Of a stretch of DNA of 23,969 nucleotides, positions 5,029 through 18,416 are shown piece after piece. A program made the position numbers and the translations under genes. Within the stretch, counting starts at the first letter, position 1, and every line of letters begins with the position of its first letter. Source of the DNA: Desulfoprunum sp. (lineage in GTDB: Bacteria; Desulfobacterota; Desulfobulbia; Desulfobulbales; Desulfocapsaceae); assembly GCA_030696435.1 (NCBI GenBank), contig JAUYSF010000015.1, positions 1-23,969 on the forward strand, given 5' to 3'. Below the pieces are notes generated by a model that was given only the letters and a program-made list of their open reading frames with translations, had not been told where the DNA came from and ran no database searches.

Positions 5029-5173
5029 GATTCGGCGATGCAAGCGATTTTCGCTCTCGACAATTCCGGCCAGGACAATTTTTGCTCATTTTGCCGTCGC
5101 ATTAGAAATATCCGGTTCAACAAGGGACCTTCTCCATGTGTAACTCTTCGCTGTCATTGAATCCATCGGGATC

Positions 5174-5309
5174 AAAATCGCTATCGCTATCGAAATCGGA
5201 TTGAGTCTTCCGGTGCAGTGAATTCTGAGTCGCAGTCGCACTTTCCCTGAATCTGCTATGATTTTTGCTAACTCGATTCGATTTCGATCCCGATTTCGAT
5301 AGCGATTTT
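5174..5309. repeat. Hexanucleotide (ATCGNN) inverted repeat
   Basis: The left arm at 5174-5199 is a run of ATCGCT/ATCGAA units. The right arm at 5290-5309 (CCGATTTCGATAGCGATTTT) is its exact reverse complement once a single 6-base unit (CTATCG) is removed from the left arm, giving 20 paired bases. More units continue leftward of the right arm, from about 5274. The arms are about 90 bases apart, so one strand could fold into a long stem. The 6-base periodicity suggests growth by slippage; no protein is encoded across it. Confidence 0.7.
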
Positions 5310-5355
5310 ATTCAGCTGAATAGTTACCTCCATGTTTTTGTATTTTTAATCCAAC

Positions 5356-7113: not shown

Positions 7114-8256
7114 ATGAAGATACCCGCCGCGCAACAATCAGGCCCGCAAGATGATTCAGCCTCTGCACCGCCTTCCGAACCGATGGATTCCTCGACCTCG
7201 CCTGCTGCCGCCGAAAAATACGCCTCAAAATACATAGCCGCCGACCGGCGATTCTCAGACACCAGTGTCTTTGTGGTCGATGATGCGACGTTTTTTTCCA
7301 GTATGCCGAGACCGACCCACTGGTCCGTCGCCTGGTCCGACCTGATGATGACCATGTTCATCCTCTTTGCCGTCATGTTCGCCTATAAGGCCGCCCATCG
7401 GGAATTTCTCGTAGACGATGAGATCGCAGTTGTCGGGGGCGACACGACTGAGGCGCTGGAGATAAGCCGGGAAGACCGGGCCGCCCTGCCCTTTGTGCCG
7501 ATCAAGCCCGGTTTACCAATCATCACCGCCGGCACGGTCAAAAAGGTCGAGTCCGTGCTGCTGCAGGACTCCGAGGATAAGACACAATTCCCCAGCGACA
7601 AGGCAAAGCAGGCTCAGGATCGGATCAGAAAAGCAGCCGCCAGCGATCTTGCCAAAAAAGAGGCCCAACAGGCAGAAGAGATAAAACGGCAGGCCGAAGC
7701 AGCAAGCTCGGTTGTGACGGAGGAGGAAGCCTCCCAAGCCCCTCCTTCTGCACCCACCACGGCAGATAAGATGCAGGAGATGTTCAGTCTCAGCCAAAAA
7801 AATCTGGAAAATTATAATCTGGAAAAATTTGCGGCAATCGATCTGGTACCGGACAAGACGGTCAGAATAGTCCTGACCGGTGATCTCTTCTTCGATACTG
7901 GTCAGGCCGAACTCTCGGCGTCCGCCAAAGAGTCGTTGAAAAAAATCACCGAGGTGATCAAAAAAACTCCGTACATGATCAATATTGTCGGCCATACCGA
8001 CAACATTCCGATGCGCTCCGAACGCTTTTCGACCAACTGGGAACTCTCCGTTGCCAGGGCCAGCAGGGTCGCCCGTTATCTCATTGAGGAACGAGGTATG
8101 AATCCCAATCAGTTCGTGGTCAGCGGTTACGCGGCCTACCGCCCCCTGCAGCCCAACACCGACACACGCAGTCGCGCTGCCAACCGCAGGGTTGAGATCA
8201 TCATCAGTAAAAAGCTGCCGCCACCGACACCGGCCACACCCGAAAATATACAATAA
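7114..8256 (+). CDS. MotB-like inner-membrane protein with OmpA-type peptidoglycan-binding domain
   Basis: 380 residues from the ATG at 7114; a TTG at 7009 would add 35 unpersuasive residues, and neither has a strong ribosome site. A cytoplasmic N-terminal stretch of about 65 residues leads to one membrane helix (about 70-92) that begins WSVAWSDLMMTMFILFAVMF; Asp76 sits where MotB carries its proton-binding aspartate. A long Ala/Glu/Lys-rich, probably coiled-coil linker (about 150-235) follows, then an OmpA-like domain (about 250-372) with GHTDNIP, NWELSVARA and NRRVEIII. The topology is that of a stator B subunit anchored to peptidoglycan, but the N-terminal segment and linker are longer than in flagellar MotB. 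The MotA-like partner follows after 14 bases. It may power a flagellum or another proton-driven envelope machine; no flagellar gene is nearby. Confidence 0.85.
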   Translation: MKIPAAQQSGPQDDSASAPPSEPMDSSTSPAAAEKYASKYIAADRRFSDTSVFVVDDATFFSSMPRPTHWSVAWSDLMMTMFILFAVMFAYKAAHREFLVDDEIAVVGGDTTEALEISREDRAALPFVPIKPGLPIITAGTVKKVESVLLQDSEDKTQFPSDKAKQAQDRIRKAAASDLAKKEAQQAEEIKRQAEAASSVVTEEEASQAPPSAPTTADKMQEMFSLSQKNLENYNLEKFAAIDLVPDKTVRIVLTGDLFFDTGQAELSASAKESLKKITEVIKKTPYMINIVGHTDNIPMRSERFSTNWELSVARASRVARYLIEERGMNPNQFVVSGYAAYRPLQPNTDTRSRAANRRVEIIISKKLPPPTPATPENIQ

Positions 8257-11161: not shown

Positions 11162-11722
11162 TTGCTTGCCTGGTCGAGTAGACCGGCTCCTGATTTGTTA
11201 AACCGTGAGTTTAAAGTAGAAGAGCCAGACCAGGTATATGTATCCGACATTACATATATCTGGACAGGTGAAGGCTGGTTGTTTTTGGCTGTAATACTTG
11301 ATCTTTTCTCCCGAAAGATCGTCGGATGGTCACTCAATAACCGGATGAGCAGAAAGTTAATCATGGATGCGTTGCGCATGGCAGTCTGGCGGCGACAACC
11401 AGCTCCCGGGCTACGCTTTCATTCTGACAGAGGAAGTCAGTATTGCAGTGATGATTTTCAAAAGATGCTTAAAACCCATGGAATGATCAGCAGCATGAGC
11501 CGGAAAGGGAATTGTTGGGATAATTCTGTGGCCGAGAGTTTTTTTGGCCACTTGAAAACTGAGAGAGTGTTTTTTACAAACTATAAGACTCGAGAAGAAG
11601 CCAGAAAGGATATCGTTGACTACATTGAAATGTTCTATAACAGCAGGAAGCGTCATTCATATTTGGGTTATGTCAGCCCAATGGAGTTTGAGAAAAGCAG
11701 GCTTCTTGAAAAAGCCACTTAG
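11162..11722 (+). pseudogene. IS3-family transposase OrfB, N-terminally truncated
   Basis: 186 codons remain of an OrfB normally around 280 residues. The rve integrase core is present with its whole catalytic triad: Asp29 (VSDITYIWTGEGW), Asp89 (FHSDRGSQY) and Glu125 (NSVAESFFGHLKTERV); 35 residues separate Asp89 and Glu125, the D-D-(35)-E spacing of IS3 elements. The typical C-terminus (YNSRKRHSYLGYVSPMEFE) is intact. The N-terminal helix-turn-helix region, orfA and the programmed frameshift window are missing, and a likely frame break lies near 11160. A product, if made, would not be a complete transposase. It marks the left border of an accessory segment that continues with a toxin-antitoxin operon. 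Confidence 0.9.
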
Positions 11723-11784: not shown

Positions 11785-11860
11785 AAAAACATGAGATACA
11801 CAAAAGAGGTTTTAACAAATCGGCACTATGGTTATTCTGTGAAAAAAGGAGGTGTCGATT

Positions 11861-12214
11861 ATGTCTCTTGGAAACAAGATAAAACAGTTACGCCAGGAAA
11901 AGAGTTGGTCGCAGGATGAGCTTGCCTTTCATGCCAGTATTGACGGACGCCAGGTCAGCCGATATGAAAATGACAAGGTAACACCGTCGGTTGATGTGGT
12001 CATAAAACTAGCCAAGGCCTTTGATGTCAGTGTTGATCACCTGCTGATCGACAATACCCCCAAACGACCACTGCATGAACCGGCCAGCAAGCTGACGGAG
12101 AAAATTATGCATCTTGAAAACATGTCGGAAGAGGACGAATCAAGCCTTTTACATGTACTCAATGCTATTGAGGCGAAAAACAAACTCAAGTCTCTGATGA
12201 GGGAAATTCAATAA
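11861..12214 (+). CDS. XRE-family helix-turn-helix regulator of toxin-antitoxin operon
   Basis: 117 residues from ATG 11861, fixed by a perfect AAGGAGG at 11846-11852 eight bases upstream. An XRE/Cro-CI HTH occupies about residues 2-62 (IKQLRQEKSWSQDELA, then GRQVSRYENDKVTPSVDVV). The C-terminal half (about 70-117) is charged and helical (KLTEKIMHLENMSEEDESSL), probably for dimerisation. It is the first gene of a tight operon: 15 bases to the antitoxin, which itself overlaps the toxin. It very likely binds the palindrome in the upstream promoter and represses the operon. This would make up for the antitoxin's apparent lack of a DNA-binding region. That role is inference. Confidence 0.85.
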   Translation: MSLGNKIKQLRQEKSWSQDELAFHASIDGRQVSRYENDKVTPSVDVVIKLAKAFDVSVDHLLIDNTPKRPLHEPASKLTEKIMHLENMSEEDESSLLHVLNAIEAKNKLKSLMREIQ

Positions 12215-12229
12215 TCAAGGGTGCGAGAT

Positions 12230-12433
12230 ATGGGCGAGGTACAATATATTACAGATGACCTGAAGAACATAACCGGAGTGATTGTGCCGATCGATCTTTG
12301 GCACGAACTGCAGTCCGAGAAGGAAACAGCGTATCTTCTCAAGAGCGAAGCCATGAAAGAACGTCTTCTTGCCGCAAGAAAACGGGATAAGGGCATACCC
12401 CTCAAGGAGGTCTGTGAAAAACTTGGAATTTGA
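12230..12433 (+). CDS. Short Phd/YefM-like antitoxin of YoeB, lacking the usual N-terminal DNA-binding part
   Basis: 67 residues from ATG 12230 (AAGG at 12217-12220 as ribosome site; a GTG at 12221 would add three residues). The segment VIVPIDLWHELQSEKETAYLLKSEAMKERLL matches the style of the Phd/YefM stretch from strand beta-3 through the helix before the toxin-binding tail. The C-terminal tail ending in EVCEKLGI is typical of such antitoxins. Compared with YefM (about 83 residues) the protein starts late, so the N-terminal helix that gives Phd/YefM its DNA contact appears to be missing. It overlaps the yoeB start by 20 bases. Expected role: bind and neutralise YoeB through its C-terminal tail. 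The family assignment is moderate; the pairing is secure from context. Confidence 0.75.
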   Translation: MGEVQYITDDLKNITGVIVPIDLWHELQSEKETAYLLKSEAMKERLLAARKRDKGIPLKEVCEKLGI

Positions 12434-12671
12434 TCCATCGGCCTTTGAGGATTTGGCCTGGTGGATACAGCAGGATCGCAAACAAGCCCTTCGGATTGTC
12501 AAATTGCTCAAGGAAATACAGCGGAGTCCATTTGAAGGAACGGGTAAACCGGAGGCGTTAAAGCATGAACTGGCCGGTTGCTGGTCGCGGCGTATCGACC
12601 AGGAGCATCGCTTGGTGTATGAGGTGAAAGAGGACAGGATCAGAATCCTGGCGTGCCGATACCACTATTAA
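12414..12671 (+). CDS. yoeB: YoeB/Txe-family mRNA interferase toxin
   Basis: 85 residues (E. coli YoeB has 84). The start is GTG 12414, with AAGGAGG at 12404-12410 three bases upstream, and overlaps the antitoxin gene by 20 bases. It aligns by eye along its whole length with YoeB: SPFEGTGKPEALKHELAG, CWSRRIDQEHRLVYEV and the terminal ACRYHY. Catalytic residues correspond with a shift of one: Glu47, Arg66, His84 and Tyr85. YoeB binds the ribosome and cuts mRNA in the A site during translation, and is held inactive by its antitoxin. All catalytic residues are present, so it should be active. Last gene of the XRE-antitoxin-toxin operon and followed after about 115 bases by a dif/attC-like structure. 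Confidence 0.95.
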   Translation: MKNLEFDPSAFEDLAWWIQQDRKQALRIVKLLKEIQRSPFEGTGKPEALKHELAGCWSRRIDQEHRLVYEVKEDRIRILACRYHY

Positions 12672-12784
12672 TCGCCCAACCGTCCGTTCCAAGGCCGGTT
12701 CTCTCCTGCAGGGTGCAATGTATCGCTCCCTGCCTGTCACACTGTTTGCCAAGAATAAAGACGCAACCAGGCCGCCAGGCAGTC

Positions 12785-12921
12785 CGCTCGCATAATGTTC
12801 CTTATGCTAAGTGGCTGGTTTTATTTGGTGTGTGGTAGATGTTGCGGATGTGTGGTGGTTGTTTATGGTCCAAGGCTTTGCTGATGGGCCACTGCAACAT
12901 AAGGGGGGCATTATGCGACAT
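12785..12921. repeat. Inverted pair of dif-like (XerC/XerD) or attC-like recombination sites
   Basis: Left site 12785-12812: CGCTCGCATAA, TGTTCC, TTATGCTAAGT; as I recall E. coli dif, 20 of 28 positions agree, with the inner parts of both Xer arms nearly perfect. Right site 12892-12921, on the minus strand: ATGTCGCATAA, an 8-base centre TGCCCCCC, TTATGTTGCAG. The two are inverted with XerD-like arms inward and about 80 bases between them. The pairing continues inward (AGTGGC against GCCACT) with a one-base offset, so the whole 130-base unit could also fold into an attC-like single-stranded hairpin with a bulged base. Against attC, the core triplet is AAT/ATT instead of the near-invariant AAC/GTT. 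Confidence 0.65.
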
Positions 12922-12963
12922 TGCGCTTGGCTTCTTGCGAGGGTTGATTTTATCCTGCGGGGT

Positions 12964-12991
12964 GGGCGAAATCCGTGATCTGTCCTCGATC
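12964..12991 (-). repeat. 28-base motif copy 1 (GGACAG-ATCACGG type)
   Basis: On the minus strand it reads GATCGAGGACAGATCACGG and a few bases more. It agrees at 21 of 28 positions with a second copy at 13860-13887 in the same orientation. The core resembles the 'GGGGACAGACCACG' sequence I associate with REP-type repeats around Y1 (RAYT) transposases, but no such transposase is present here. The two copies bracket the orphan RHS tip and its neighbour gene. Confidence 0.5.
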
Positions 12992-13008
12992 GTGTTCGCG
13001 TTATTTTC

Positions 13009-13248
13009 CTAAATCCCTATAAAAGAAACAACAATAGCAGCAATAATTGCAATAGTGCCAACAAAGACTTGTGCATATATAGAAAAATAAAAGCTGAATT
13101 TATCCTCTTTTTTATCCTTGAATACTACAGATGGATCTAAGAAACCTTTACATGAAAGAGTAACACCCTTATATAATTGAAGCAATGCAATGCAAATAAT
13201 TGCTACTCCAAAGAGGAAAACCTCAATAGTACTATCAGTGAAGATCAT
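13009..13248 (-). CDS. Small two-helix membrane protein, candidate immunity protein for orphan RHS tip
   Basis: 79 residues with two strong hydrophobic segments, about 8-28 (VFLFGVAIICIALLQLYKG) and 54-78 (FSIYAQVFVGTIAIIAAIVVSF), and a charged connecting loop (DKKEDKF). It lies 20 bases downstream of the orphan RHS C-terminal fragment on the same strand, the usual place of an RHS immunity gene. If so, the cognate toxin would act at or near the membrane. No family is recognised and no clear ribosome site precedes the ATG at 13248. AT-rich, unlike the core genes to the left, consistent with horizontal gain. Confidence 0.6.
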   Translation of the reverse strand: MIFTDSTIEVFLFGVAIICIALLQLYKGVTLSCKGFLDPSVVFKDKKEDKFSFYFSIYAQVFVGTIAIIAAIVVSFIGI

Positions 13249-13268: not shown

Positions 13269-14012
13269 TTAATCTTTAACACCGCATCTACATTTGCATT
13301 CTTGGAGGTCGCCATGTAAGTCTAATATGCTCATTAACATTCCGGCAAGATAGAAAGTTTTTCCAAGGTACTTAGCTGTTTTGAAATTGCTTTTCTGGTA
13401 CATTTCTCCAGAATTTTTATATAAATATTTTCCTCCTGCTCTGGTTCCGTCAGCTGTTGCGCTACCTGCATCCCATATCCCTCCACTAGTTAAAGTGTCC
13501 GTGTCCTCGAAGAGTCTGCCTAAAAGATCTAAGTCAACAGGGCTGAAATTTAAACCAGGGAGTAGCATCATCATTTTATCGAAAACGCAACGATTATAGC
13601 ACCAGTTCTCACCAGAATAATTAAAGTTAAAAACTGGAGGAGACTTATGTTTTTCTCCTTTTCTAAAATCCCAATTTGGGTCAGCATATCCAAGTAATCC
13701 TTCAGGATCAATCCAATTAATCGGATCATTTTGGACATACGCATAAAGATTCATGCCCCCAGCCAAACCAATAGGATCAGCGGAGACATACCGCCCAGTC
13801 TCCGGATCATAAAATCTGTTCCAGTTGTAATGGAGTCCGGTTTCCGAGTCGTAATATTGGCCCGGAAACCGTGGTCTGTCCCCGATTGCTCCGCCGATTG
13901 CTCCGAATTTCCTACGGATGGCATCCGAATTTCTTAAATTTCCGGGAAAATATCCAATGGCCCTTTGTAATGATTTCGATTTACTTGTAGGGAAACTTTT
14001 TTGCAATCCCAA
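13269..14012 (-). CDS. Orphan RHS C-terminal tip with a distinct toxin module
   Basis: The 247-codon frame has RHS homology only from about codon 49 ([16 protein letters not shown]): the end of an RHS core ([37 protein letters not shown]) followed by a unique module of about 141 residues with clustered cysteines (WCYNRC, ECKCRC). The preceding codons read across the tail of the upstream gene and look like chance coding, so the true fragment starts near 13887. The core part matches the end of the large RHS gene closely in both protein and DNA, while the toxin modules are unrelated. This is the classic orphan rhs-CT arrangement: a displaced tip that can replace the active one by recombination. 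It probably lacks its own secretion route. The activity of the module is unknown. Confidence 0.82.
13860..13887 (-). repeat. 28-base motif copy 2 (GGACAG-ACCACGG type)
   Basis: On the minus strand it reads AATCGGGGACAGACCACGG and continues into the first codons of the orphan RHS homology. It therefore sits at the exact left breakpoint of the orphan tip. Copy 1 lies at 12964-12991, beyond the candidate immunity gene. Confidence 0.5.
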
Positions 14013-14284
14013 GCCATTTTCGTAAACTCGACTTGAATATCACCATAGTGATCTCTTCCTTTTAATAAAAATTGCTTGTAGATAATTTCCCCATTACCTA
14101 CCTTTATTATCAAATAAGCATCTACTACATAAAAAGGAAAGGTTCTCTTCCAAGCAATACTGGCTACGCTTCCATCTCGTGGGCATTGGGCTGAGAGTAG
14201 CTCATTATACTTATCGAAATAGGTGTTGACCAACATAAACAATAAGATAGCCAGTAATAGCGTTATTAGAATATATTTTTTCAT
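13934..14284 (-). CDS. Small membrane-anchored protein, candidate immunity protein for the large RHS toxin
   Basis: 116 residues. The N-terminus [23 protein letters not shown] is a single membrane anchor or uncleaved signal; the rest is a soluble domain with two cysteines (SAQCPRD and AWDCKK) that could form a disulfide outside the cytoplasm. It starts 7 bases after the stop of the large RHS gene on the same strand, exactly where RHS immunity genes sit. It belongs to no family I recognise. A periplasmic domain would suit protection against a toxin that acts in or enters through the periplasm. The function is inferred only from position and size. Confidence 0.65.
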
Positions 14285-14291
14285 AGGAAGT

Positions 14292-17200
14292 TTATTGGCA
14301 CAAAACTCTTCTTAATTGTTGTCTTAAATAGTTTTCATCTGCCTTATTACTAGGGCATGCATTTTCAAGTTCAGATGCAACTTTTCTTGCTGCCCAATCA
14401 TCGGCAATTTCTGCATCGGATTCCTGTCTTGTTCTACCTGGTTGAAATCCTTGAGCCCAGTCAATGGTCTCATTCGCTGCTGAGGCTCCACCCCCTATTA
14501 TCCAACCATGCTTCAGTATTGCGCCTGCATGTCCATAGATATGACGACTAACAGCACCCCCTTGCCGACCTGCGACTAATTCTGGCCTAAAACCAGTGGG
14601 TTTCGATAGGGTTGTACCGCGTTTATTTAAGAAAAGTTGCCCCAAAGAGTCCTTGTTGCCACCAGCAATCTTCCAGTCCCCAATCAATGATTCAACAAAA
14701 TCGTGACATGAAATAAGTCCCCAAGGATCAATCCAATTAACCGGATCATTTGAGACATAAGCATAGAGATTCATCCCCCCATCCAAACCAATCGGATCAG
14801 CAGAGATATACCGGCCAGTTTCCGGATCATAATATCGATTCAGGTTATAATGAAGCCCTGTCTCCGAGTCAAAGAACTGGCCAGCAAACCTGAGGTTGTT
14901 CTTCACCGTCTGCACCTTGATCTGGGCCTGACCAAAGGGCAGATAGGCAGCCTGCCAGACTAGAGTACCAGTCGCAGTGACAAGCTGCTGCGGGGTCCCG
15001 AGATGATCGTTCACAAAATAATAGGTGCCGGGATTCGTCTGGTATTCCCGTAGGGCCAGAGGTTCGCCGTCGAGATAAATATACTCCCTGAGAGGAGTGC
15101 CATCAAGCAGCGTTTCGGCGATGAGTTGGCTGTTGAGATCATAGATATAGTGACTGGTTACAGTACCGACGGTCTTGCTGATCCGCCGGTTCATACTGTC
15201 ATAACCGTAGGTGGCTATTGTGCTGCCCTGTTGCTCAACTTTGCTCAGCCGGTTCAGGGCGTCGTAGGTAAAGGTGTTGGTCCCATCTGAGAGCATATTG
15301 CCGTTGGCATCGTAGGTGTAGGCCTTCGGGGCGGCAGCGGTGAGTTGGTTATTGGCGGGATTGTAGGTGTAATCGATTGCAACGCCCGCGGTGGTCGGGG
15401 CCTGGATCCCGGCAATCTTCGAGACATTGCCGCCGGCATCGCGGGTATAGATATAGTCGAGACTGCCTGCTTTGATCTTGGTGATATTGTAACGCTGGTC
15501 ATAATCTCTGGTCAGATTGACTGAGCCGAAGGAGGCAGATTTTAACGGACCGAAAGGCAGATGCGTGACGGCGGAAACCAAGGCGGCGCCGTCTATATTG
15601 ATGGCGCTGATCTGGCCGCTTGTATCCCTGGAATAGCTCAGGACTCTGCCGCTCGGGTAGGTCATCCCGGCCAGCTCGCCAGTGGTGGCATCCCAACTGT
15701 AGCCGGTCGTATGGGAGGTGGGGCCGATCACCCTGGTCTCGGTTACCAGTCTGCCGGCTGTGTCATAGACAAACGAGTCCGTCCCTTCCCGATCCGTGAT
15801 CCGGCTGAGATGACCGATGGCGTTTGCACCTTGGTCGTAGCTGAAGAGGATATCGTCGCCACCGGCATAGCTCTGGCTGATCGGTCGGTTCAGGGCATCG
15901 TAGGTGAAGCTTGTGCCCTGGCCCTTGGCATCGGTGGCGGTAACGAGATTGCCTGCCTTGTCATAGCTGTAGCCGTTTTGCCCGGTATCCGGGGCAGTGC
16001 GGGAGACCCTTCTGCCGAAATCATCATAGGTGAAACTCGTTACCTTGTTGTTGGCATCCGTGACCTTCGTGACATTGTCATGGGCATCATAGGCATAGCT
16101 GGCGGTGGTAGTACCCGCTTCGGTCACTGACAGCAGACGGCCCAGGGCATCGTACTGGTATCCGGTCTGCATGGCGGTGGCATTCACGGTCTTAACCAGA
16201 TTGCCGACCTGGTCATACTCCGAGGTTTCCTGGGCATCACCGGGAAGAGTTACTTTGGTCATTCGGCCATAATCGTCATAGCCATAGTTTGCGTATCGAG
16301 TAAGGGTGTTCTGCGGATCATGGACTGCTTCGCCGGTTCGCCTTCCTCCACTGTCATAGGTATAGCTAATGGCGTTGCCCAGGGTGTCGGTGATCTTGGC
16401 GATCTGACCGGGGGTACCGCCACAACCGGATTGACAACCGCCTACGCCTATATAGGTGTAAGTGATCATCCGGGTGCCCGGCAGGGTAATGGTTTGCAGC
16501 TGCCCGGTGGCATTATAGGCATAGGCGGTGGTCAGACCGGCGGTGGTAGTTGCGGTTACCAGGCCGCTGCTATTGTAGGTTCGCGTGGTGACGATGCCGT
16601 TCGGGTCGGTGACGGTTTCGGCTTGGTCGAAGACGTTATAGTCACTGTAGGTTGTTGTATGGCCCAAGGCATCGGTGACGGTATGCAGATTAGCGCGGTT
16701 GTTGCCTGCGGACACATCGTTTGGGTAGTAGGCAAAGCTCACCGTATCGTTTACATCGCTGCGAGGCCCGTCGATTGAGGTAATCCGACCGTAGCTGTTA
16801 TAGGTATACTGGGTTGTAGCGGTGATTGCGGTTGTTCCGGAATAACCGCTCTGCTGTCGGCTAAGCAAGTTGCCCTGTGTATCATAGATCAAACTTGTTG
16901 TATTGCCCAGAGGGGTGATTATCGCGGTGAGATTGCCCCTATCGTCATACTGGTACTGGGTTATGGCATTGGTGGCATCGGTAATTGAAGTGCGGTTGCC
17001 ACGGACGTCATAGCCATACTGCGTAATATTGCCTTTGGCATCGGTGATACTGGTTACAAGATCGAGGCTATTGTAAGTATATGTTGTTGTGTGGCCCAGC
17101 GGATCGGTCACCGAGGTCATGTTGCTATTTGTATCGTAGGTGTTAACGGTAGAAGACCCATCCGGATAGGTTGTTTTGATGAGGTTGCGTTTGGTATCGT

Positions 17201-18416
17201 AGGTGTAAACGGTGGTATTGCCCAGCGAGTCGGTCTTGGAAGTTTTTACCGCTAATACAGCGTCATAGGTGTATGACCAGAGACTGCCGTCTTTTTCGGT
17301 GAAGGTGGAGGTCCCGGACGTGAGGTAATCCATGGCCCGCGTTTTGCCCTCCGGATCGATGGAGCGCAAAAGCCTGCCCTTTGAATCATACGTATAGGTT
17401 ACCGTTCTCTTCGCAGGATCTTTCTTGGTGAGCATTTTACCCGCGCCGTCATAGGTGTACTGCCAGGTATTGCCTTCAGGATCATTGATGGAAGTAAGGA
17501 AGTCTCCGGTGTAAGCCAGGGTGTTGACCCGCCCCAAGGTATCGGTAATTGTGGTTATCTTGCCGCCGGTGGTCGCTATGGTTGTTATTCTGTTATATTG
17601 ATCGGTGATGCTCGCCAGGTTGCTCCCGCTATAAGTCAATGTGGTTGTGTTGCTGTTTTTGTCGGTAATGGAGCTGAGGATGCCGGCTGAGCTGTAGTTG
17701 TACTTTGTTCCGTTCTTGGTGGTTCGCGTAAACGTGCCATTGGCATTTTTGACAATGGGGGAGGTATCGCCGCTTCTGTTTTCAGGATAGTATACTCTGC
17801 TGGATTGTCTGAAGTAGATGATATTGCCATCATCAGCTTTGAGCATGATGTTGCTGCCTGAGATTGTTAGTTTGGATTCGTAATTATGGAACCATTTTTT
17901 ACCTAAAGCGCCTCTGTGTACATCAATGCTGTTAAAGGAAAGAGTAAGCATGCCGATATTCTGTGAATGGTATAGATTACCGCTTTTAAGGTTCGCAGAA
18001 GATTCTGCGGGAACAGAGGGTGTAGAGCAGGGATTGCCTTTATCGCCAGTGGTTCCTCCTAAGGCTGGAGGGTCGCAACTACCAGACGCTATCATTGCTG
18101 GTGTCCTTACGTCGCCCTGAGGCAGGGGATAACCGTATATATAACCTGGCCAATAATGGGTGTACGTTCCAGTTCCAACATGTGAGCAAGTTGGTGGTCC
18201 ACCCTCTATAGGGCAAGGCCCCTGAACAGGATACATCTCATAGTTACAGTTATATTCTGTATAAAAGTGACCCCACCCACACGCTCCACCAGTGCTGCAT
18301 TGTAAATACCTATATGCTACGCCATCTGTTGCATAAGCACTCATTGCAATCAAAAAAGTAAAAAGGCTGCAAATACTTGCTAACAGTTCAACACCAGATT
18401 TTATGTTAAAATTCAT
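14292..18416 (-). CDS. Large secreted RHS/YD-repeat polymorphic toxin
   Basis: 1374 residues. The signal peptide is about 1-30 (hydrophobic ELLASICSLFTFLIAMSAYA). A Cys-rich region about 31-115 is followed by an RHS N-terminal domain (SGNLYHSQNIGMLTLSFNSI, GKKWFHNYESKL). Then come dozens of YD repeats (G-x-x-x-x-x-Y-x-Y-D) to about 1150. The hallmark core end is [18 protein letters not shown] ... NWIDPWGL at about 1205-1234. The last 140 residues are a separate toxin module with AGRQGGAVSRHIYGHAGAI, family not recognised. RHS cores form a hollow shell around the C-terminal toxin, which is released by self-cleavage. A Sec signal peptide and no PAAR or VgrG domain suggest surface export as in WapA rather than type VI loading. 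The next gene downstream, 7 bases away, is the likely immunity gene. The terminal module is AT-rich relative to the core, as usual for swapped tips. Confidence 0.93.
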   Translation of the reverse strand: MNFNIKSGVELLASICSLFTFLIAMSAYATDGVAYRYLQCSTGGACGWGHFYTEYNCNYEMYPVQGPCPIEGGPPTCSHVGTGTYTHYWPGYIYGYPLPQGDVRTPAMIASGSCDPPALGGTTGDKGNPCSTPSVPAESSANLKSGNLYHSQNIGMLTLSFNSIDVHRGALGKKWFHNYESKLTISGSNIMLKADDGNIIYFRQSSRVYYPENRSGDTSPIVKNANGTFTRTTKNGTKYNYSSAGILSSITDKNSNTTTLTYSGSNLASITDQYNRITTIATTGGKITTITDTLGRVNTLAYTGDFLTSINDPEGNTWQYTYDGAGKMLTKKDPAKRTVTYTYDSKGRLLRSIDPEGKTRAMDYLTSGTSTFTEKDGSLWSYTYDAVLAVKTSKTDSLGNTTVYTYDTKRNLIKTTYPDGSSTVNTYDTNSNMTSVTDPLGHTTTYTYNSLDLVTSITDAKGNITQYGYDVRGNRTSITDATNAITQYQYDDRGNLTAIITPLGNTTSLIYDTQGNLLSRQQSGYSGTTAITATTQYTYNSYGRITSIDGPRSDVNDTVSFAYYPNDVSAGNNRANLHTVTDALGHTTTYSDYNVFDQAETVTDPNGIVTTRTYNSSGLVTATTTAGLTTAYAYNATGQLQTITLPGTRMITYTYIGVGGCQSGCGGTPGQIAKITDTLGNAISYTYDSGGRRTGEAVHDPQNTLTRYANYGYDDYGRMTKVTLPGDAQETSEYDQVGNLVKTVNATAMQTGYQYDALGRLLSVTEAGTTTASYAYDAHDNVTKVTDANNKVTSFTYDDFGRRVSRTAPDTGQNGYSYDKAGNLVTATDAKGQGTSFTYDALNRPISQSYAGGDDILFSYDQGANAIGHLSRITDREGTDSFVYDTAGRLVTETRVIGPTSHTTGYSWDATTGELAGMTYPSGRVLSYSRDTSGQISAINIDGAALVSAVTHLPFGPLKSASFGSVNLTRDYDQRYNITKIKAGSLDYIYTRDAGGNVSKIAGIQAPTTAGVAIDYTYNPANNQLTAAAPKAYTYDANGNMLSDGTNTFTYDALNRLSKVEQQGSTIATYGYDSMNRRISKTVGTVTSHYIYDLNSQLIAETLLDGTPLREYIYLDGEPLALREYQTNPGTYYFVNDHLGTPQQLVTATGTLVWQAAYLPFGQAQIKVQTVKNNLRFAGQFFDSETGLHYNLNRYYDPETGRYISADPIGLDGGMNLYAYVSNDPVNWIDPWGLISCHDFVESLIGDWKIAGGNKDSLGQLFLNKRGTTLSKPTGFRPELVAGRQGGAVSRHIYGHAGAILKHGWIIGGGASAANETIDWAQGFQPGRTRQESDAEIADDWAARKVASELENACPSNKADENYLRQQLRRVLCQ

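Follow-up and report, generated by a model that had tools for sequence, protein, structure and literature searches.

Inverted dif-like pairs between toxin-antitoxin genes and RHS tips: candidate single-strand-folding Xer sites away from dif

What is a pair of dif-like sequences doing behind a toxin-antitoxin operon in a Desulfoprunum genome, with its two members turned to face each other? The question arises near the middle of the window, by which we mean the whole stretch of 23,969 nucleotides analysed here. A sequence-only reading had reported two sites with XerC and XerD arms about 80 bases apart, directly downstream of the operon, and had left open whether they belonged to a plasmid-type pdif module, to an integron-like attC or to the chromosomal dif itself. 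Both sites are indeed present, separated by 79 bases, with the stop codon of the YoeB-like gene about 115 bases upstream of the pair. The 20 of 28 positions that the left site, with its 6-base centre, was said to share with the E. coli dif were counted again with the same result. The features of the locus are as follows.

11852..12214, + strand: HTH_3 regulator, first gene of the toxin-antitoxin block (Pfam HTH_3, 4e-15)
12221..12433, + strand: Phd/YefM-like antitoxin (Pfam PF02604, E 8e-4, under the curated cut-off)
12369..12671, + strand: YoeB-like toxin, start codon uncertain (Pfam PF06769, 6e-36)
12673..12788, + strand: flank on the left side of the unit, also conserved in G021 and others (blastn, 74-77% over flank and hairpin)
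12713..12721, + strand: left half of a possible outer fork stem, GTGCAATGT, complementary by eye to 12918-12926
12730..12782, + strand: first hairpin, HP1 (inverted repeat I4), in the minimum-energy fold, just left of HP2
12785..12812, + strand: left dif-like site, with XerC arm, 6-nt centre and XerD arm, CGCTCGCATAA-TGTTCC-TTATGCTAAGT
12788..12922, + strand: second hairpin, HP2, the folded Xer site (128.5 bits with model R1 and 122.2 bits with R2, both trained on it)
12892..12921, - strand: right dif-like site, ATGTCGCATAA-TGCCCCCC-TTATGTTGCAG, with the 8-nt centre TGCCCCCC
12918..12926, + strand: right half of the possible outer fork stem, ACATTGCGC, by eye
13009..13248, - strand: candidate immunity protein of the orphan tip, 79-aa ORF, by position only
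13269..14012, - strand: displaced RHS tip, an RHS core fragment with a C-terminal domain, pointing at the unit (tblastn, translation)
13934..14284, - strand: candidate immunity protein of the main RHS gene, 116-aa ORF, by position only
14292..18416, - strand: main RHS-repeat gene (Pfam RHS_repeat 5e-98, RHS 6e-11)

Could such a pair have arisen by chance? Against the dif consensus of the host family, ATGTCGCATAA-TGTATA-TTATGTATAGT (26 sites of 30 loci fetched), the left site is identical at 19 of 28 positions, and the right site carries the family XerC arm in full (11/11) together with 6 of the 11 bases of the XerD arm. A score of 19/28 is not rare in itself, since an unrelated match of the same quality lies at position 8252, and the weight of the finding therefore rests on the pair, its fold and its relatives rather than on a single-site score. 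The window has two matches to the pattern CGCATAATN{3,12}TTATG, where shuffles lead one to expect 0.01. The inverted dif-like pair is real, and not a product of chance.

The unit, as we call the pair with its hairpin, is single-copy in its own assembly as it stands; the second related site in the genome whose lack the sequence-only reading would have counted against it was not found there. Among 97 genomes (its own and 96 relatives), long DNA matches of 69-81% identity occur in G021 (two), G023 and G024, with pieces in others. A covariance model built from 7 copies (R1) detects units in 12 of 93 family genomes at E <= 0.01, while with a second, built from 10 copies (R2), 36 units are recovered from 27 of the 257 genomes of the order (E <= 0.001). 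In a sample of 395 genomes across the phylum, R2 detects units in three, of which two were already known; the order and phylum searches ran with stricter filters that lose weak matches. A genome may hold up to three units. Column identity averages 64-70% over the 7 copies, and identity across the block between the two units of G021 is 82%. In many relatives the flanks are also conserved beyond the XerC arms, and the unit is thus inherited as a larger block. Covariance-model searches found no unit in the congeners G001-G004, of which G003 and G004 carry an RHS locus that matches that of the window with other tips; behind the immunity-like gene there, the stretches of 390 bases and about 1.5 kb hold none. 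From this scattered presence and these unit-free congeners, two of them with the matching locus, we would argue on sequence comparison that the site is mobile or labile.

Plasmid and phage records searched by DNA similarity or patterns gave no match to the unit. Pattern searches of viral contigs returned 3 + 4 stretches, none of the seven matching R1 at E <= 0.1, and the 16 stretches returned from genome contigs were read as about ten single dif-like sites in other phyla, one unit of G021 and, among others, pieces in Deltaproteobacteria. Three IMG/VR contigs (L093, L094 and L096), alike over the stretch shown, have the dif-like site CATAAGACAAGTTATGCGACATTG in common, and possibly belong to a dif-using phage. 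Neither a recombination product nor an exact empty site was found in this collection of draft contigs, which has one genome per species and many units at contig ends. In genus g51, unit-free sites lie behind comM in G148, G151, G146, G152 and G145; the contig of the filled copy stops 182 bases past the unit, and no exact junction is readable. Half units are broken within the loop rather than at the position of the XerC cut.

Several single observations belong here. In G150 a unit directly follows comM (L167), in G175 one follows a comM fragment (L169), and 3'-end fragments of comM adjoin a half unit in G150 (L200 975-1661) and a unit in G149 (L173 2-351), making comM a possible hot spot. G022 has a loop-less unit on the minus strand (L051, about 4745-4700), CGCATAATGTCAGTTATGCAACATTGC, which looks as though a deletion between its two TTATG copies had removed the hairpin. 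A tyrosine recombinase gene in G387 (L180 1285-2220) reads towards the unit and ends 120 bases left of it, and an IS200-like Y1 transposase gene in G145 (L163 1122-1526) abuts the right end of the unit.

How, then, does the unit fold? The hairpin is imperfect: its R and L boxes pair and the spacers stay unpaired, as in attC. For the minus strand of 12785-12921 only 1 of 200 shuffles gave a better fold, and the plus strand was beaten by 8 shuffles. The structure is also larger than first described, the site pair being flanked by HP1 and by the possible outer stem. This outer stem (12713-12721 with 12918-12926) is absent from the computed minimum-energy fold of the window; by pattern search its box occurs in 15 of 39 units, nine with CAATG and six with CATTG, and 12 of the 39 have the HP1 motif. 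The fork therefore has to be considered a feature of some units only. The CAATG units have CATT at the right partner position in seven of nine cases and lack it in two, while CAGTG is the partner in five of the six CATTG units, the sixth having failed to parse. As far as so simple a pattern can tell, this is a compensated change between two groups.

Pairing within the hairpin itself was followed over 36 aligned units. Standard pairs fill 89.7% of the cells, as opposed to 30-48% once the partners are shifted by 1-3 columns, and two-sided changes occur at 14 of 27 pairs. None of 500 shuffles equals the real alignment on paired cells, two-sided changes or covariation score, and one does on further pair types. 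These statistics are inflated by the relatedness of the units and by the use of a pairing model, since the models favour paired sequences and part of the observed pairing is present by construction; for this reason, the sites were also parsed separately. The fold and covariation of the unit are strong nonetheless, and its structure is under selection.

The separate parsing covered 39 tabulated units. Both sites could be read in 35, with L168, L131, L179 and L181 dropping out, and for the right XerD arm of L159 the parse probably falls too early. Of the left centres, 20 are 6 nt long, eight 7 nt, six 5 nt and one 8 nt; right centres measure 7-10 nt in 30 of the 35 (7 nt in 20), and in 26 the right centre is the longer of the two. 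Base 1 of the centre is the same at both sites in 33 of 35 units, base 2 in 32, and both together in 30, as against only 4 for base 3. The stem must therefore span the XerC arm and two exchange bases, after which it opens or weakens. Between units this dinucleotide varies, with nine kinds among the left sites. The 30 matches within units were reached by none of 20,000 permutations, nor were the 24 matches among the 29 distinct centre pairs, in a test that ignores relatedness.

What could two such bases specify? In the phage CTXphi, attP1 and attP2 are described as two oppositely oriented sites separated by about 90 bp, one with a 12-nt centre and the other with a centre of 6-7 nt, in a region that folds into a forked 150-bp hairpin (PMC3089051). 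There XerC alone exchanges one strand with dif, and compatibility and specificity are set by the centre bases beside the XerC site (PMC3089051; PMC4246890). The commonest dinucleotide in host-family dif is TG, which is found in 6 of the 35 left sites, the window's included, while GG is found in 14. Given the CTXphi rule, most units could not join the host dif, and by this analogy they would be mostly incompatible with a TG dif and still able to join each other. Within genomes the dinucleotides mostly agree (TG twice in G021; GG three times in G145 and twice each in G149 and G150; TT twice in G256), with mixed sets elsewhere (GG/CA/AA in G067, two CG with AA in G241, TG/TA in G099).

To the right of the unit in the window, the displaced RHS tip was matched at 13671-13889 (3e-27) by tblastn with the main RHS protein of the window and that of L043, and the 79-aa and 116-aa ORFs have no Pfam or PHROGs match. 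The same two queries were used to survey 38 units, two of the matches being the queries' own loci. RHS matches lie to the right and read towards the unit in 14 of the 38, the nearest 130 to 3,662 bases away (G000, the Desulfoprunum genome itself, G021, G023, G024, G099 twice, G090, G129, G067, G177, G149 twice, G204 and G087). A match on the left occurs once (G099, where the tip sits between two tandem units), four of the 38 left flanks being shorter than 600 bases. The remaining 24 units have no right-side match, seven of them with a right flank below 300 bases; by eye, DPWGL-type tips lie right of the unit in G150, reading towards it, and in G387, reading away. The association with RHS tips is one-sided. 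In G099, two orphan tips start at the same RHS codons (by eye), each backed by a unit.

On the left, the proximity of toxin-antitoxin genes to Xer-type sites, which the sequence-only reading took up from plasmid and integron precedents, recurs behind several relatives' units. The toxin-antitoxin block of the window is 91% identical in DNA in G021, where it also precedes a unit; with this block and the families that Pfam finds in the subset of neighbours scanned, such genes read towards the unit from its left in nine units. Beside the YoeB of the window, the toxin or PIN-like families include PIN_3 in G099, ParE and HicA at units A and B of G067, ParE and HicA at the two units of G040, DUF3368 in G150 and HicA in G145; in G178, a Phd-PIN pair points the other way. 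In G099, G067 and G040, toxin modules stand between tandem units; the window has one unit only. The order in G067 is ParE, unit, HTH and HicA genes, unit, and then an RHS tip from the opposite side.

Other repeats and a transposase gene were also noted. The gene immediately left of the toxin-antitoxin block (window 11162-11719) encodes a transposase integrase core (rve; PHROGs transposase). Displaced RHS tips have a short repeat resembling CCGTGATCTGTCCTCGAT / GGGGACAGACCCCGATT close to their ends (window about 12976-12994 and 13867-13886; L127 6066-6090 and 6568-6590). A MITE-like, partly palindromic sequence of some 180 bp (window about 5147-5330) has about 20 similar copies or pieces in the assembly.

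Taken at slightly better than even confidence, the explanation that we favour is that the unit is an off-dif Xer site that folds as single-stranded DNA and is attached to RHS-tip and toxin-antitoxin cassettes, with recombination being our inference. It would act much like the attP(+) hairpin of CTXphi. The two inverted dif-like half-copies would pair with each other, and the folded stem would present, in turn, an XerC arm, two exchange bases that are paired, a bulge that is not, and an XerD arm, an order of arm, centre and arm that the computed folds and the covariation give, as in attP(+). HP1, or its equivalent, and the possible outer stem would turn the unit of the window and some of its relatives into a fork. 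Placed between toxin-antitoxin genes on the left and an RHS tip with its candidate immunity gene on the right, both reading inwards, the unit would be bound by XerC and XerD, and when the region becomes single-stranded the host XerC would join its hairpin to compatible sites by exchange of one strand only. The partners would probably be other units rather than dif, and such joining would add or displace small toxin cassettes.

The likeness to attP(+) and to elements of the IMEX type lies in the inverted dif-like pair some 80-90 bp apart, the unequal centres, the hairpin (forked in some units) and the specificity bases that adjoin the XerC arm (PMC3089051; PMC4246890). The units differ in lying off dif, in numbering up to three per genome with dinucleotides mostly unlike that of the host dif, and in standing beside toxin-antitoxin and RHS tip cassettes with no Zot-family gene on their contigs. 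Indeed, this phage assembly family is absent from the unit contigs of all 28 unit genomes and from the whole Desulfoprunum genome, while four of the 28 (G087, G067, G024 and G149) have it on other draft contigs. No virion or phage replication family was found among 10 window proteins (PHROGs/Pfam), and no source of single-stranded DNA was seen beside the units. The recombinases themselves are at hand: the genome encodes one XerC-like and one XerD-like protein. Each scores below its NCBIfam equivalog cut-off yet passes the one for the subfamily model common to both; the start of the second ORF is probably placed too late.

Could the unit simply be the terminus dif of the chromosome, or have arisen from dif by inverted duplication? 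It has both XerC and XerD arms in common with host-family dif, the family-type dif pattern was not found in its own assembly, and GC skew changes sign near 13 kb. The reading is nevertheless scarcely credible, since dif in the relatives is another sequence in another place: the pattern CGCATAANNNNNNTTATGT occurs in 75 of the 93 family genomes, as against 12 with units, mostly with one match each, the extra matches being units in G021, G099, G109, G040 and perhaps G037. Most of these sites have TGTATA as their centre; five genomes show TATATA instead, and in three the centre reads TTTATA or TGTGTA. In G021 dif and the units lie on different contigs, in the drafts G003 and G004 dif and the window-matching RHS locus do so too (nearness being possible there), and in the closed genome G018 dif is 1.4 Mb from a weak unit; in G023 both share a contig, 11 kb apart. 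No dif was found at the units' own location, and the units are thus off dif. The skew change follows gene direction and is undone at 15 kb. As a separate observation, G016 (L135 2760-3700) has a second AATGTCGCATAATG half-site 0.9 kb from its chromosomal dif, as if an element had entered. A divergent attC worked by the genome's own integron integrase (405 bits, contig C200, L062) is improbable too, even though the layout of paired boxes and unpaired spacers is the same and toxin-antitoxin genes read into the site in the manner of cassette genes. Integron cassettes, too, carry toxin-antitoxin cargo, and here as there a foldable single-strand site comes after a gene and the members of an array point the same way. 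What the units lack is the crossover triplet: AAC/GTT, the sole conserved sequence of attC (PMC4792948), is intact on both sides in 6 of 35 units and is AAT/ATT in that of the window, whereas a full dif-type XerC arm is conserved on the right. Nor is there a clear tie to integrases, which at E <= 1e-60 are present in 139 of 257 genomes of the order, comprising 18 of 27 unit genomes and 121 of 230 others (table read by the author), and absent from G099, a 92% complete draft with two strong units. The integron contig itself, which is not the one that bears the unit, gave no match to R1; at L062 1020-4007 (G000:C200) the integrase stands with a divergent array whose boundaries look like canonical attC, of GTT type by eye, as in a chromosomal integron. 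The attC-like character proposed by the sequence-only reading therefore holds for the fold behind toxin-antitoxin genes and fails for the identity: the unit is neither chromosomal dif nor integron attC. Its other suggestion, an ordinary pdif module, matches less well than the CTXphi type of folded attP(+), which that reading had not named. Xer sites do accompany toxin-antitoxin genes in the pdif modules of Acinetobacter (PMC6449649 and others), and T6SS vgrG clusters are flanked by dif sites in Neisseria subflava (PMC10210955); in these modules and islands, single double-stranded sites flank the module, while here each site is a foldable inverted pair.

Two further explanations were considered. 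It might be an RNA or transcription element, either a bidirectional terminator or a structured RNA between converging genes; the genes do converge on it, the covariation fits RNA as well as DNA, and base 3 of the centre wobbles on the top strand in 14 of 35 units and on the bottom strand in 7. We hold this to be hardly probable, given that the window has no Rfam match and no T run after the stem, that its loop, at about 70-80 nt, would be unusual in a terminator, and that the arms are those of host dif around a dif-like left centre of 6 nt. The main rival is that the hairpin is inherited baggage, a former Xer attachment site of a filamentous phage or satellite that is now carried as 3' homology while tips are exchanged by homologous recombination. 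The conserved flanks, the breaks of half units in the loop and the dinucleotides unlike host dif would all suit it, and replacement of RHS tips has been ascribed to recombination at the toxin gene's 3' tip (PMC3482391). Dead baggage should, however, lose its pairing, and pairing kept by two-sided changes despite the divergence of the copies speaks against a mere relic; the two units of G021, at their level of identity, would also make a poor substrate for homologous exchange. This explanation we consider unlikely, while giving it more credit than any other rival.

What would the favoured explanation, a folding Xer site away from dif, mean for these bacteria? The locus resembles known RHS and polymorphic toxin tip cassettes in its displaced orphan tips with an RHS core fragment and candidate immunity genes (PMC3482391, PMC3150448), and differs from them in the defined, recombination-type hairpin 3' of the tips. 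A limited literature search found no description of foldable inverted dif pairs beside RHS tips. The acquisition and stacking of such tips are usually attributed to unspecified recombination, for which a foldable Xer site is a concrete candidate mechanism. A bolder extension, which we put forward tentatively and think rather doubtful, is a Xer-run counterpart of the integron, in which toxin-antitoxin and RHS tip-immunity cassettes would be handled by host XerC through dif-derived folding sites, free of an integrase, with two bases by the XerC arm (TG, GG, CG, TT, AA, CA, CC and others) as a compatibility code that would keep most cassettes off dif. If this is true, the single-strand trick of CTXphi and integrons would be used by chromosomal cassettes with neither a phage nor an integrase of their own, its specificity would be readable as a two-base code, and the hairpins may let small toxin cassettes move by means of the cell's own recombinases.
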